Origin: Gammaproteobacteria bacterium
GTDB lineage: Bacteria > Pseudomonadota > Gammaproteobacteria > RBG-16-57-12
Length of the DNA stretch: 62,811 nucleotides
Direction: 5' to 3'
Assembly (NCBI GenBank): GCA_021647245.1
Contig: JAKIVC010000013.1
Span: 1 to 62,811, forward strand
The position numbers were made by a program, and so were the translations under genes. The notes beneath the pieces are model-generated. The model was not told where the DNA came from and ran no database searches. It saw only the letters and a program-made list of their open reading frames with translations. Position 1 is the stretch's first letter, and every line of letters starts with the position of its first letter. Of the stretch, positions 52,878-61,201 are shown piece after piece.

Positions 52878-53579
52878 TCACACGGTTCGTGCCGCTACCC
52901 ATACCTCCACATATTCAACACCTGAATTTTTCAGAAGGATGGCAAGGGCATTCACTGTGCTGCCGGTGGTCATAACATCATCAATAATAGCAACATGACG
53001 TGCGGTAAGTGAATTTTTCTGGCTAAAAGCATTTTTCATATTGGCCAGGCGCTCTACGGCATCCAAATCACTTTGTGCCTGGGTACGCTGCAACCGCTGA
53101 CAGGATTTAAAGTCCAGCTCGATTTTAAGTTGTCGGGAAATATCCCGAGCCAGCTCCAGCGCCTGATTAAAGCCTCGTTCCCGCGTGCGTGTCACATGCA
53201 GGGGCACCGGAATAAGCAGTTCAGGCAATGATGCTAATGGGTGGCCAATCTGCTCAAGCATAAGGTGTGATATTACCCGAGAGTAGTGCAGGCGGGCATT
53301 AAATTTAAGTGCTTGCACCAGCGTCGAGAACGGTTTTTGGTAAAGATAAGCTGAAATCACCCGGTCGAAGGCAGGCGGTTGCTTCAAACACCTCCCGCAC
53401 TGCATCCGCAAATCACCTGTCAACGGTAAGCCACACTGACGACATGGATTGTTAATGCGAACAAGGTCACCCTGACAGCCAATACAGAGGTCAAGTGCTG
53501 GCTCACCTGCACCACCGCAGAGCACGCAACGTGACGAAAGAGAGGCGCGATGCAGATAATTTAACCAGCCGTTAACCAT
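52878..53579 (-). CDS. comF: ComF family phosphoribosyltransferase
   Basis: ComF is linked to natural transformation. It has a zinc finger (CVLCGGAGEPALDLCIGCQ, CRQCGLPL, CGRC) over about residues 18-63. A phosphoribosyltransferase domain follows with the PRPP loop VAIIDDVMTTGSTVNAL near 195-212. At 233 residues it is a normal ComF. It is divergent from bioB and shares a 92-bp intergenic region with it, the common bioB-comF arrangement. Whether this organism is naturally competent is not shown, although its type IV pili would fit. Confidence 0.92.
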   Translation of the reverse strand: MVNGWLNYLHRASLSSRCVLCGGAGEPALDLCIGCQGDLVRINNPCRQCGLPLTGDLRMQCGRCLKQPPAFDRVISAYLYQKPFSTLVQALKFNARLHYSRVISHLMLEQIGHPLASLPELLIPVPLHVTRTRERGFNQALELARDISRQLKIELDFKSCQRLQRTQAQSDLDAVERLANMKNAFSQKNSLTARHVAIIDDVMTTGSTVNALAILLKNSGVEYVEVWVAARTV

Positions 53580-53671
53580 AACAATCCTTTTCGGTTGACA
53601 GAAATCCTTTATAATAGCGAACTACAGTGCATCGAAATGTCGACAGATGTCAATCTGCAAGAGGATTACCC

Positions 53672-54706
53672 ATGGTACAGAACGAAACCTATGACCGCAT
53701 TGATGAAATTACCCAGCGGGTGCTTAATGGCGGAGAGATGAGTGCGGATGAAGGCCGCTGGATGATCGCCCTCGACCATCGCTATCTACCTTGGGTAATG
53801 GCGGGTGCTGATCGCCTGCGTCGGACTTTTCGTGGCGATGAAATCGAGTCCTGTGCCATCTCAAATGTTCGTTCAGGTAACTGCTCTGAGGATTGCAGCT
53901 TCTGCTCACAAAGCGCCCACCATAAAACAGAAGCTCCGGTTTATGACTATATTTCAAGTGATGAACTCAAGGCTCAAGCGCTGCGCGCCCGTGAGTGGGG
54001 CGTGAGTGATTTCGGCATTGTCTCCAAGGGCTGGGGAGTGCGTAACGACAAAGAGCAGCAACAGCTGGCTAAATATTTCGAAACACTCTCAGAAGAGAGC
54101 GATATTGGCCGCTGTGCAAGTCTCGGCGTCTTGACCCGAGAGAGCGCCCTCAAGCTAAAAAAGGCAGGCCTTGAGAACTATCATCACAACCTGGAAGCGG
54201 CAGAGAGCTTCTTCGATAACGTCTGTAGCACACACACCTATCAAGAAAATATCGATACCATCAAACATGCCGCCGATGCCGGGCTGCGCGTTTGTGCTGG
54301 TGGTATTCTGGGCATGGGTGAGAGCCTTGATCAACGCATTGAGCTGGCGGACACGCTGCGTAAAATTGGCGTAGAATCTGTACCGATGAACTTCCTCAGC
54401 CCAGCGGAGGGAACACCGATGCAAGATATTCCAGCCATGCGGCCCCATGAGATCCTGCTGAGTATCGCCACTTATCGTTACCTGCTGCCAAAAGCTGAAA
54501 TTCGTATTGCCGGGGGCCGCCAACACCTGCGCGATATGCAGTCGATGATCTTCTTTGCCGGTGCTTCCGGTATTATGGTCGGTGACTACCTGACCACATC
54601 AGGGCGCAGCGTTGATGATGATTTAAAGATGCTGAATGACCTGAAATTAAATATCCGTGGTGATACCCAGAAATCACGCAAAATCATCCCGATTAACGCC
54701 GCCTAG
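53672..54706 (+). CDS. bioB: biotin synthase, variant lacking the C97-type ligand
   Basis: BioB inserts sulfur into dethiobiotin. Of its 344 residues, CSEDCSFC (C71, C75, C78) binds the radical-SAM 4Fe-4S cluster. Equivalents of E. coli C128 (C148 in GRCASLG), C188 (C208 in RVCAGG) and R260 (R283 in RIAGGR) are present, but the Cys at the C97 position is missing ([11 protein letters not shown]). An extra Cys185 (NVCSTHTY) appears instead, as in biotin synthases from anaerobes that use an auxiliary 4Fe-4S cluster. ATG 53672 with an AGAGGA ribosome site is the start. First gene of bioB-bioF-bioH-bioC. Confidence 0.9.
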
Positions 54707-54719
54707 TCCGCACGAAACC

Positions 54720-55871
54720 ATGGATAAATGGCAACCACTTGCGGCGGCACTGGATGATCGCCGCCGTCAAGCGCTCTATCGACAGCGTAAAATCAGTGAC
54801 TCACCCAGCTCACCCAAGATGATGATCTCGGGTAAGCCTTGCCTCTGTTTTTGCAGCAACGACTACCTTGGTCTGGCCAACCACCCCGCAGTGATCAAGG
54901 CCTTTAAAAAAGCCAGTGACCACTATGGTGTCGGCTCCGGGGCGGCACACCTCATCAACGGGCACGCTCACGCACACCACGCACTGGAAGAGGAGCTGGC
55001 TGATTTTACAGGGCGACAACGCGCCCTGCTCTTCTCTACCGGCTACATGGCTAATCTGGGCGTCATCAACACACTCTGTGGTACCGGTGATCACCTCTAT
55101 CAAGATCGGCTCAATCACGCTTCACTACTGGATGCCGGCAAGCTGTCAGGGGCACGGCAACAGCGCTACAGCCACCTCGACAGTAAGAACCTGCTCGCAA
55201 AGTGCACTGCAAACACGCCTAAAATGATCGCAACCGATGCGGTTTTCAGTATGGATGGTGACCTTGCCGAGCTGCCACAGCTCGCCCAGATTGCCCAGCA
55301 ACACGATGCCTGGTTAATGGTTGATGATGCACATGGGCTCGGGGTTTTGGGCCACAACGGCGCGGGCACTCTGTCTCATTTTGGATTGGATGCCAAACAA
55401 GCTCCCATTTTAATGGGAACGTTAGGCAAAGGACTGGGCACCTTTGGTGCCTTTGTGGCGGGTGACGAACTGCTGATTGAGGCGTTAATCCAACAAGCAC
55501 GCAGCTACATTTACACCACCGCCATGCCGGCCGCTATTGCAGAGGCGACCCGCACCAGCTTAACCCTTCTACAAACAGAGTCATGGCGACGGGAGAAGCT
55601 ACAGCAGCTCATCAGCAACTTTAAAACCGGTGCGGCCCAACTGGGCTTACCCCTGATGCCCTCTGATACCCCGATTCAACCCCTGCTGATAGGTGATAGC
55701 GCCCAAGCAACCGCTGTGAGCCAGCAGTTGTTGGCTAGTGGTATTTTAGTCACCGCCATTCGCCCGCCCACAGTGCCCGCAAACAGCGCTCGACTACGCA
55801 TCACCCTCTCGGCTAATCACACAGAGCAGCAGGTAGCGCAACTCCTGACAGCACTGGAAAGACTCTTATGA
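54720..55871 (+). CDS. bioF: 8-amino-7-oxononanoate synthase
   Basis: A PLP enzyme that condenses pimeloyl-ACP or -CoA with L-alanine, the first dedicated ring-forming step of biotin synthesis. The 383-residue product has [44 protein letters not shown] and the PLP lysine in [11 protein letters not shown] (Lys237). The ATG at 54720 gives a family-length protein; the open frame extends upstream without similarity. It overlaps bioH by four bases and starts 13 bp after bioB. Confidence 0.96.
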
Positions 55872-56641
55872 ACCTGCATATTCAGAGCGAAGGCCTGGGA
55901 CCACCATTAGTATTTTTGCATGGCTGGGGCATGAACAGCGATGTCTGGGAAGATATTTCACCCCAACTGAGCCAGCACTATGCGGTTACCCTGATCGACC
56001 TGCCAGGGCATGGTCGCAGCACACTCACCCAGCACAGCTATCAACTTGAGCAGCTGGCAGAAGAGTTAATCGAGGTAATACCCCAAGCCGCTATTCTGGT
56101 TGGCTGGTCACTCGGGGGCTTAATTGCATTACAGATAGCACATCAATATCCAGAGCAAATTCAGGCCGTGGTAATGGTTGCCAGCTCACCTCGGTTTGTG
56201 CAAGCCAGTAACTGGCCCTACGGGGTAGACGCCGCGATCTTTGATAAATTTGCCCGTGACCTGAAAGATGATTATCAGGCCACGCTCAAGCGCTTCATCG
56301 CCATTCAAGCGATGGGGAGTGCTCATGCAAAATCCGAAATCTGCACACTTCGCGAACGAATACTACGCCATGGAAACCCACACCACAAAGCACTGCAAGG
56401 TGGGCTGCGCCTGTTGCAGCAGAGCGACTTGCGTCAGTCACTTGCCGAACTGCACTGCCCGATAAAGCTCATATTAGGTAGCCGAGACACGCTCGCACCC
56501 GCCCGTATCGCCGGCCTGTTAAGCCAGCAACACCCGCATCTGGAGAGTTCGATTATCCAAGGGGCCGCCCACGCACCCTTTATCTCTCACCCTGGTGAGT
56601 TTCTAGTCGTATTAAAAGAGTTTATTAATCATCATGTTTGA
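55868..56641 (+). CDS. bioH: pimeloyl-ACP methyl ester carboxylesterase
   Basis: BioH removes the methyl group from pimeloyl-ACP methyl ester and so ends the elongation started by BioC. The 257-residue alpha/beta hydrolase has [10 protein letters not shown] (oxyanion region), nucleophile Ser81 in GWSLGG, Asp207 in GSRDTLAP and His235 in GAAHAPF, positions nearly identical to E. coli BioH. The gene overlaps both bioF (4 bp) and bioC (8 bp). Confidence 0.95.
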
Positions 56642-57509
56642 CGATCGCTACCGCATCATTAAATCACAAATTCGCCACTCCTTTGATAAAGCGGCCCCCC
56701 GCTATGACGAAGTGGCGATACTGCAACGTGAAGTGGCTAGTCGCCTGCTGGAGCGCCTAGATCTTATCAAACTCGCACCACAACAGATCCTTGATCTGGG
56801 TTGCGGCACAGGACACAATAGCCAACACTTAGACAAGCGCTACAAACGCGCCCAAGTTATCTCGCTTGATCTTGCGCCAAACATGATCAAACAGGCACGC
56901 AAACATAAGTCCTGGTTCAACAAACAGTGCTTCATTTGTGGTGATGCGGAGGCACTCCCCCTTATGGATAACAGTGTAGACCTCATCTTCTCCAGCCTGA
57001 CCATTCAATGGTGCCATGACCTCGATAGTGTTTTCAAAGAGTGCTTTCGAATACTCAGGCCCGGCGGGCTGTTGATGTTTTCCACCCTGGGACCCGACAC
57101 ACTCCATGAGCTGCGCAGTAGCTGGCAAAAAGTTGATAGCAACAACCATGTCAACGCCTTTATTGACATGCACGACATCGGCGATGCGATGATTCGCAGC
57201 CGATTATCTGACCCGGTAATGGATGTTGAAAATATCACCATGACCTACAACCAAGTTATGACACTGATGCGCGACCTTAAAATACTCGGCGCCCACAACA
57301 TGACCCATGGCCGCCCCCGCAACCTGACCAGCAAAACAAAAATGGTCGCCATGTGCGATGCATATGAGCGCTATCGCACCGAAGGGGTTCTTCCCGCCAC
57401 CTATGAAGTGGTCTACGGCCACGCTTGGGCACCCACAAATAAACAAGAAGCACAAAATGGGGCTGATGGCGTATTTCGCTTCCCCCTCGACCAATTGCGA
57501 AAACGTTAA
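56634..57509 (+). CDS. bioC: malonyl-ACP O-methyltransferase
   Basis: BioC methylates malonyl-ACP to start pimelate synthesis on the fatty-acid machinery. The 291-residue protein has SAM motif LDLGCGTGHNSQHL near 53-66, a GDAEALPL acidic strand, and LRPGGLLMFSTLGPDTL. The first residues carry the RHSFDKAAPRYDEVA segment typical of BioC. It overlaps bioH and ends the bioBFHC run; bioA and bioD are not in the window and must be elsewhere. Confidence 0.95.
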   Translation: MFDDRYRIIKSQIRHSFDKAAPRYDEVAILQREVASRLLERLDLIKLAPQQILDLGCGTGHNSQHLDKRYKRAQVISLDLAPNMIKQARKHKSWFNKQCFICGDAEALPLMDNSVDLIFSSLTIQWCHDLDSVFKECFRILRPGGLLMFSTLGPDTLHELRSSWQKVDSNNHVNAFIDMHDIGDAMIRSRLSDPVMDVENITMTYNQVMTLMRDLKILGAHNMTHGRPRNLTSKTKMVAMCDAYERYRTEGVLPATYEVVYGHAWAPTNKQEAQNGADGVFRFPLDQLRKR

Positions 57510-58900: not shown

Positions 58901-61201
58901 TTATTCTGGTCGATAGGTTTCATAGGTCAACTGGAGTGTGTAGTGACCTGGTGCCGCTTCAATACGGAGGAAGTCCTGCGCATGCGGTGTTTGCAGGATA
59001 AACGCTCCATTGAGTGGCCGTAGCTCACCCCAGTTGATAACAGCCAACTCATCAAAGGCAACCATCCCCCCACCATACTCAGTCGGCGATTTCCGCAAAA
59101 AGAGCCTCAAAGCTCGAGGATTCAAGGATGGTTGATCCTGGTATTGCGGTAAATTTAGATCCTCCGGCATTGTCAGATCACTCAACAGTGGCTGCCAGGG
59201 AAAGTCGCCACCGGCGTGGTAATAGGCCTGCTCTTCGCCAAACACCTCTTCACCAAAACTGGCATAATAACGAACAGTGATGCGCACCTCGCCGCTATTT
59301 TCTCCACGAAGATAACCAAACAAGCTTAAATTTTTATTGGGTCTGTTTTCAGCATCACCCATAACGCGAATACGGTTGCGAAATGCACTCACCGTATCAC
59401 CGCTACTTTGAGCATCGCGCACCAAGCAAAGCCCTTGCACCCCTTGATAAGCGCCACTCATACAGGCAAAGCGACTGCTCCCCGATAGATCCCAGCGAGC
59501 GGCCTCAAACAATTGATTATCAATGTCGTAATCTTCAAAATCACCATAAAGCAATATATCCCGCCCAACGGCAATATCGAGCCCTGAACTCACTGAAGAG
59601 ACTCGCGCCAAAGAGGCTTCAGAGGGGATTAGATGACGCAGGTCGACAACCCCCACGCGACTCTCGCCAATGGTAATGGTGTGGTTTATCTGCTCCGTCT
59701 GCTTGGTATGAAGTTCACCTTGGTTCAAAATCCACGCGCTGTATTGATAAGGGAAAGAGAGGGCATTGCCACGGGAAAACTCTGACAAATGTCGAATAAA
59801 GCGGTTGGCAAGATCGCCGCTGATTCGACGAGGGCGATAATCTTCAAGATAGATCGGAATTCCCTGTGCCCGAACAATCTGTTGGTCTCGAACATCCACC
59901 TGCGCCATCAGCCCCAACATGGTGTCGTGGCGATCTTGATCAAACAGAAAGTTACCCAGCCCTTCAAATATCAACACACCGTTATGATAACCAAAACCCT
60001 GCGCAACATGAGGGTGGTGTGATATCACCAGGTCTGCACCCGACTCCACCGCCAGGGTCATACGACCATAGATATAATCACTTGGAGTCCATCTGTATTC
60101 AGCACCGCCGTGCAACTGCGTAATCACAAAATGACCTTTCGCCTGCGCGGTATTAATAGTGGTTGTCACCCGCACACCATCATTCAGATCCGCCGCCCCG
60201 CCCTGAGGGGTACAAGGGTCGTAGTTAACACCATTACAGTCGGTTGCCACATAAAGATCAGCATAACGAGAACCCGATACTGAGTTAGCTGAAACCAGCG
60301 AGATGGGCATGCCGTTAATTTCTATTTCATAGGGAGCAAAAGCCTCTTCCGGTGTTGCCCCGGCACCTGAATACTGGAATCCATATTCTGTTAGGTAAGC
60401 CAGGGTATCTTGCAAACCGGCACCTAAATAGTCATAGACGTGATTATTCCCCAGGCTGACATAGCTAATACCCGCCTCACTTAAGGCGGGTAGTGATTCG
60501 GGCAGAGAAAAGTAGACAAAATCCTTAGTGGGGTGGGGTGTCTGTGGGTTAAGCGTTACCGGACTCTCAAAATTAATCACCGGAAAGTCAGCCTGCATCA
60601 AGGTTGAACGAATATAGTCGAGCGCTTGACGGCTCCCTGGCAGGGGGTCACTACTGCGAATCAGCGCCCCTGGGTAGTCAGCAGGAATTTCATCTCTAGA
60701 GGCTAGCTCCAGAGGGTCGAGAAAACGACGCGCAAAAGAGAGATCACCACCAAACAGCAAACGCGCCTCATTGCTATTTTTTGCCGTCAGAATGAAGGGG
60801 GCCAGTTGCAGCAACTGTTGAGTGACCGGTATCTGCATTTTCAGTGGATGTTGAAATAAACGAAACCGTGTAGCATCCACGCTCAAAAGCACATTTTTTC
60901 TTGCCAGATTTTGCAAGCTAAAGCGACCCTGTTGATCCGTGTAGCCTTGCACCCCGAGAGCGGCCACCAAGGCACCCTCAACAGGGTTGCCTGACTCATC
61001 CACCACCTCGCCATGGATATCCACAGTATTGTTCTGATAGCGGTCCCGCAGCAACTGCTCCTGCTGTAAAAAATCACTAACACTTACCGCGTCATTTTTT
61101 TCACATCCTGACAGGCTCCACAATAGAGAGGCTATCAGCACCAACAGGCAGAATCTGTAAGCAGTTGCGGTATTCAATAGGTTCTCACCAGTAGATGACA
61201 C
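58901..61201 (-). CDS. CapA-type metallophosphatase lipoprotein
   Basis: A 766-residue lipoprotein. An N-terminal hydrophobic segment ends at the lipobox LSGC (Cys33). A carboxypeptidase-regulatory-like beta-sandwich follows (about 57-115, VDIHGEVVDESGNPVEGALV). The CapA/PGA-capsule metallophosphatase domain comes next (about 145-455: LLFGGDLSFARRFLDP, INFESPV, LGNNHVYDY, TQLHGGAEYRW, ISHHPHVAQGF, GLGNFLFDQ). A C-terminal 300-residue region may be carbohydrate-binding. CapA domains occur in poly-gamma-glutamate and other exopolymer systems, but no capBC genes are nearby. The gene is divergent from speE. Confidence 0.85.
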   Translation of the reverse strand: MSSTGENLLNTATAYRFCLLVLIASLLWSLSGCEKNDAVSVSDFLQQEQLLRDRYQNNTVDIHGEVVDESGNPVEGALVAALGVQGYTDQQGRFSLQNLARKNVLLSVDATRFRLFQHPLKMQIPVTQQLLQLAPFILTAKNSNEARLLFGGDLSFARRFLDPLELASRDEIPADYPGALIRSSDPLPGSRQALDYIRSTLMQADFPVINFESPVTLNPQTPHPTKDFVYFSLPESLPALSEAGISYVSLGNNHVYDYLGAGLQDTLAYLTEYGFQYSGAGATPEEAFAPYEIEINGMPISLVSANSVSGSRYADLYVATDCNGVNYDPCTPQGGAADLNDGVRVTTTINTAQAKGHFVITQLHGGAEYRWTPSDYIYGRMTLAVESGADLVISHHPHVAQGFGYHNGVLIFEGLGNFLFDQDRHDTMLGLMAQVDVRDQQIVRAQGIPIYLEDYRPRRISGDLANRFIRHLSEFSRGNALSFPYQYSAWILNQGELHTKQTEQINHTITIGESRVGVVDLRHLIPSEASLARVSSVSSGLDIAVGRDILLYGDFEDYDIDNQLFEAARWDLSGSSRFACMSGAYQGVQGLCLVRDAQSSGDTVSAFRNRIRVMGDAENRPNKNLSLFGYLRGENSGEVRITVRYYASFGEEVFGEEQAYYHAGGDFPWQPLLSDLTMPEDLNLPQYQDQPSLNPRALRLFLRKSPTEYGGGMVAFDELAVINWGELRPLNGAFILQTPHAQDFLRIEAAPGHYTLQLTYETYRPE

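Follow-up and report, generated by a model that had tools for sequence, protein, structure and literature searches.

In the biotin synthase (BioB) of E. coli the ligands of the [2Fe-2S] cluster are C97, C128, C188 and R260, and enzymes with this ligand set are referred to here as Type I. Passages of PMC11099021 also discuss Ser43 as one of the residues around this cluster, and describe BioB-family enzymes of mycobacteria that depend on BsaP, with Ala replacing C128 in M. tuberculosis and M. smegmatis. A second class, Type II, is described in the sections of PMC11099021 and PMC11138216 that cite Lachowicz et al. 2024 as carrying a [4Fe-5S] auxiliary cluster and as being the form of the enzyme that most or all obligate anaerobes use. 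Two PDB entries released in January 2024 bear the titles of biotin synthases from V. parvula (8vdw) and B. obeum (8vcw); judging from species and date, these would be the Type II enzymes of Lachowicz et al. 2024 (JACS).

The window, that is the whole stretch of 62,811 nucleotides analysed here from a gammaproteobacterial contig, contains a bioB gene at the head of a bioB-bioF-bioH-bioC operon (Table 1). It is single-copy and the sole biotin synthase of the genome, in which bioD is located elsewhere. The translation of 344 amino acids scores 363.8 bits against the TIGR00433 equivalog model (cut-off 225) and shows the Radical_SAM (PF04055) and BATS (PF06968) domain pair, which together with the operon identifies it as a biotin synthase. 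The BirA-like operator upstream of it matches the consensus at 13 of 18 positions, a score equal to the best of 50 shuffles, while five homologous sites reach 15/18 (L022, L023, L029, L066 and L136, the last in a Type I operon) and one further Type I operon (L138) reaches 16/18, where shuffles give at most 13/18; the E. coli operator, used as a control, gives 18/18.

Table 1. Features of the biotin locus and its surroundings in the window.
Feature	Position	Strand	Remarks
comF-like phosphoribosyltransferase	52878..53579	-	PF18912, PF00156; divergent from bioB; landmark of the conserved slot
BirA-operator-like inverted repeat CCGTTAACC-N15-GGTTGACAG	53569..53601	+	between comF and bioB
bioB, Type II-like biotin synthase	53672..54706	+	SAM-cluster C71/C75/C78; predicted auxiliary-site C61, C148, C185, C208 and R283; Gly115
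bioF, 8-amino-7-oxononanoate synthase	54720..55871	+	TIGR00858, 471.9 bits
bioH, pimeloyl-ACP methyl ester esterase	55868..56641	+	TIGR01738, 279 bits
bioC, malonyl-ACP O-methyltransferase	56634..57509	+	TIGR02072, 266.6 bits
PGA_cap (capsule synthesis) family protein with a carboxypeptidase-regulatory-like domain	58901-61201	-	near the bio operon

The window BioB shares with the E. coli enzyme (1r30) the reaction family, the SAM-cluster motif, the equivalents of C128, C188 and R260, and the role in the operon, but the two proteins are only 28% identical and differ at several notable residues. The window protein has exactly seven Cys, at positions 61, 71, 75, 78, 148, 185 and 208, along with Arg283. 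In the alignment, RFCMGAAW of E. coli corresponds to DFGIVSKG, so that C97 is replaced by Gly115 with no adjoining Cys and the Type I ligand set is incomplete, whereas EACMTLG/GRCASLG, KVCSGG/RVCAGG and RLSAGR/RIAGGR pair C128 with C148, C188 with C208 and R260 with R283. In addition, NIITTRTY corresponds to NVCSTHTY, which places C185 at I165 and changes TTR to STH, and Cys61 occupies the position of Ser43. The first-pass annotation had listed C71/C75/C78, C148, C208 and R283, a residue other than Cys at the C97 position and an extra Cys185; translation and alignment bear out each of these, residue numbers included, and find no Cys nearby that could stand in for C97. The annotation overlooked C61.

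The pattern extends far beyond the window. Among 69 distinct gammaproteobacterial relatives (64-97% identity), positions 61/115/148/185/208/283 are C/G/C/C/C/R in all 69, Gly at the C97 position included, and because of this invariance the pattern does not reflect chance; at the level of sequence, it is a class signature. The 33 Type I gammaproteobacterial BioBs all have Cys at 115, Ile, Val or Ala at 185, Cys at 148 and 208 and Arg at 283, with Ser (29), Cys (3) or Ala (1) at position 61. Among the Bacillota, Cys61 is present in 25 of 25 sequences and the complete Cys set of the window protein in 21 of them, V. parvula and B. obeum included, with Ser, Gly or Ala, and once Asp, at position 115. 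A plasmid-borne homologue of M. intracellulare, from the BsaP-dependent mycobacterial group (PMC11099021), likewise has a Cys at 185, but it differs from the window protein in having Cys at the C97 position, Asn at 61 and a different tree branch.

Other arrangements were encountered in the same comparison. The Bacillota BioBs L174-L177, in which C61, C148 and C208 are kept, have Asp in place of C97 and Val at 185, and are possible candidates for a further auxiliary-cluster type. The BioBs of a member of the Desulfobacterales (L080) and of Ilyobacter polytropus (L165) are devoid of the C97 and C185 equivalents and keep C61, C148 and C208. Those of a member of the Nitrosopumilaceae (L081) and of several Campylobacterota (L086-L088, L090) have both the C97 and the C185 equivalents without that of C128, a ligand arrangement that differs from the other types.

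Comparison with solved structures points in the same direction as the residues. By sequence, the nearest structures are 8vdw (301 bits; 42-43% identity) and 8vcw (238.5 bits; 35-36% identity), followed by E. coli 1r30 (161.3 bits), and the AlphaFold model of the window protein (pLDDT 89.5) matches 8vdw with Z 47.5 and rmsd 1.3, 8vcw with Z 44.3 and 1r30 with Z 39.2. The V. parvula and B. obeum proteins thus have the same fold, the same equivalents of C61, C148, C185, C208 and the Arg, and no Cys at the C97 position; they differ from the window protein in having Ser rather than Gly there. The Cys set 61, 148, 185, 208, used here as a mark of Type II, was defined in this work from the sequences of these two PDB entries. 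It could be argued that the window gene encodes a Type I [2Fe-2S] enzyme in which C61 or C185 has taken over from C97, with otherwise E. coli-like sacrificial chemistry, since C148, C208 and R283 are kept and Cys61 also occurs in 3 of 33 Type I gammaproteobacterial BioBs. However, both extra Cys are present, as in the solved Type II proteins, and sequence, fold and tree all group the window protein with Type II, so that we regard a modified Type I enzyme as improbable.

The tree in question contains 73 BioBs, among them 21 Bacillota sequences and the two PDB sequences, and was built with the ligand columns removed. The Type II gammaproteobacterial BioBs form one clade (support 100/99), which groups with G369 (a genome of the same phylum and another class), Nitrospinia, Desulfovibrio and Bacillota (98/91), and the Type I gammaproteobacterial BioBs form a separate clade (100/100). 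Forcing all gammaproteobacterial BioBs into one clade costs 38.5 log units and is rejected (AU p = 0.0086); an earlier quick tree, which was searched poorly and included fewer outgroups, did not rule such a clade out. The first-pass annotation had proposed an anaerobe-type BioB, to be checked by phylogeny, and the window protein indeed nests among the anaerobe enzymes and outside the [2Fe-2S] class, so that ligand pattern, phylogeny and fold match together give good support to Type II membership. What does not agree with the published description is the host: compared with V. parvula and B. obeum, the window enzyme belongs to an oxygen-respiring gammaproteobacterium whose genome encodes CcoN/CcoO and superoxide dismutase, and its gene stands in the gammaproteobacterial comF/bioB-bioF-bioH-bioC arrangement. 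Because the association with obligate anaerobes is a habitat generalisation and not a structural criterion, class membership is left intact. The enzyme type itself is known, and it is its occurrence in this setting that is unexpected.

This occurrence is not isolated. In a survey of 369 gammaproteobacterial species drawn evenly, of which 310 have a BioB, 38 genomes carry a BioB at least 65% identical to the window protein, and the other matches listed are at 40% or less, with none in between; a further Type II match (G003, 71% identity) is a fragment at a contig end. Type II thus accounts for about 12% of the BioB-bearing gammaproteobacterial species sampled, across 14 families by the survey's family codes. 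One family (f51) is mixed: two of its genomes (G285 and G364) have Type II in the operon slot, and another (G053) has a Type I bioB with neither comF nor bioF nearby, the other sampled members being Type II.

A divergent comF followed by bioB-bioF-bioH-bioC is found around both types. Measured against the window proteins, the scores of ComF, BioF, BioH and BioC cover overlapping ranges in the two kinds of operon, and those of BioB differ about threefold. Since the slot formed by comF, the operator and bioF-bioH-bioC is the same in both, bioB alone was swapped: one type has taken the place of the other in situ, whichever way the exchange ran. Most of the relatives are metagenome-assembled genomes, and a foreign bioB could in principle have entered such a contig by binning; this can be given practically no weight, as a contiguous conserved operon surrounds bioB in dozens of independent genomes (including G233, on 2 contigs) and BioB and BioF subclades agree. 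The transfer of bioB suggested by the first-pass annotation stands, therefore, as an exchange of bioB only within a conserved operon, in which either type may have displaced the other.

As regards the number of exchanges, the BioF and ComF trees imply 9-13 changes by parsimony with weak support, and do not reject a single origin. As regards their direction, Type II may have held the comF-bioB-bioF slot first in the phylum, later displaced by Type I in most Gammaproteobacteria, in which case the Type II gammaproteobacteria would be retentions rather than recipients; this would alter the history only and leave the enzyme assignment unchanged. The BioF data are compatible with one clade of all Type II operons (not rejected, p = 0.485), and the Type II BioB of G369 (48% identity) is encoded upstream of bioF and preceded by a divergent gene that weakly resembles comF. 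On the other hand, that comF match is weak (25 bits), the bioF of G369 is divergent, the closest sampled outgroups are distant and the root of the BioB tree is unplaced, so that we entertain this reversed order tentatively, as a possibility somewhat short of even.

The window genome encodes CcoN and CcoO above the cut-offs (cbb3 oxidase), followed by a partial ccoP-like frame, as well as an Fe/Mn superoxide dismutase and, at locus L124, a NorB/NorC-like pair adjoining a Crp/Fnr-type regulator, assigned from sequence and not by a family model; the organism is therefore not an obligate anaerobe. No aa3-type oxidase gene was found in this genome. With the aa3 range for COX1 set at E below 1e-125, and ranges calibrated on fetched loci rather than on every genome, the survey tally gives no aa3-range match in any of 39 Type II genomes (14 in the CcoN range, 22 with a divergent CcoN-like gene only, 3 with no match); among the Type I genomes, roughly three in four have one. 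The association of Type II with absence of the aa3 oxidase is only suggestive, because the Type II genomes are related to each other. The low-oxygen habit proposed by the first-pass annotation is thus probable for the bearers, in that it is plausible and fits the lack of an aa3-type oxidase gene, but it is not proven, and the organism does respire oxygen (cbb3, superoxide dismutase).

Several details of these respiratory loci may be added. A MoxR-like ATPase lies downstream of the NorB/NorC-like pair in L124, and the gene content there suggests that the host may reduce nitric oxide. In the relatives, COX1 matches near 1e-74 were considered as NorB and this reading was rejected, as the fetched loci show divergent CcoN-like genes. 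In the Type II relatives L192-L199 such a gene (in L192 at 226 bits, where the ccoN cut-off is 583) is the sole heme-copper match and has unusual partner subunits; its substrate could be oxygen or nitric oxide. A named relative, 'Candidatus Tenderia', originates from a biocathode kept under aerobic conditions and possesses cbb3 genes (PMC5743799, PMC5371394); the Tenderia metagenome-assembled genome behind L038 gave no COX1 match.

Taken together, we hold with considerable confidence that the window gene is a Type II biotin synthase leading a conserved operon, with bioB swapped in situ, in oxygen-respiring hosts whose habit is probably a low-oxygen one. In the proposed mechanism, C71/C75/C78 would hold the radical-SAM [4Fe-4S] cluster that generates the 5'-deoxyadenosyl radical, which would abstract hydrogen from dethiobiotin, and an auxiliary 4Fe cluster ([4Fe-5S] in the class) on Cys drawn from C61, C148, C185 and C208 would supply the sulfur, in place of the E. 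coli-type [2Fe-2S] on C97/C128/C188/R260. Class membership, the conserved residues, the identity of the operon and the exchange of bioB are established by computation; the cluster type, the ligand set with the part played by each Cys, the sulfur donation and the turnover of the window enzyme, which the first-pass annotation called catalytic, would follow those of its class. A point that weighs against this is that one fold might serve differently in anaerobes and in bacteria that respire oxygen. At the level of the locus, bioB alone has passed between Type I and Type II with the BirA-like operator and bioF-bioH-bioC kept, and the bearers are oxygen-respiring bacteria that lack an aa3-type oxidase and whose life is probably one at low oxygen.

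The passages of PMC11099021 and PMC11138216 that deal with Type II BioB present it as belonging to obligate anaerobes. In the present data, many gammaproteobacteria with oxygen-reductase genes have it as their only BioB and share the rest of the operon with Type I species. We lean towards the view that Type II is not confined to anaerobes but is the sole BioB of an oxygen-respiring gammaproteobacterial assemblage, that the two types are interchangeable in one regulated slot, and that it may be oxygen exposure, rather than ancestry, that their exchange follows. For the biology of the family, this means that (i) matched pairs of organisms make the effect of oxygen on two sulfur-donating clusters comparable, (ii) C61 joins the residues worth mutating and (iii) these bacteria may be a source, for biotin production, of Type II enzymes with some tolerance of oxygen.
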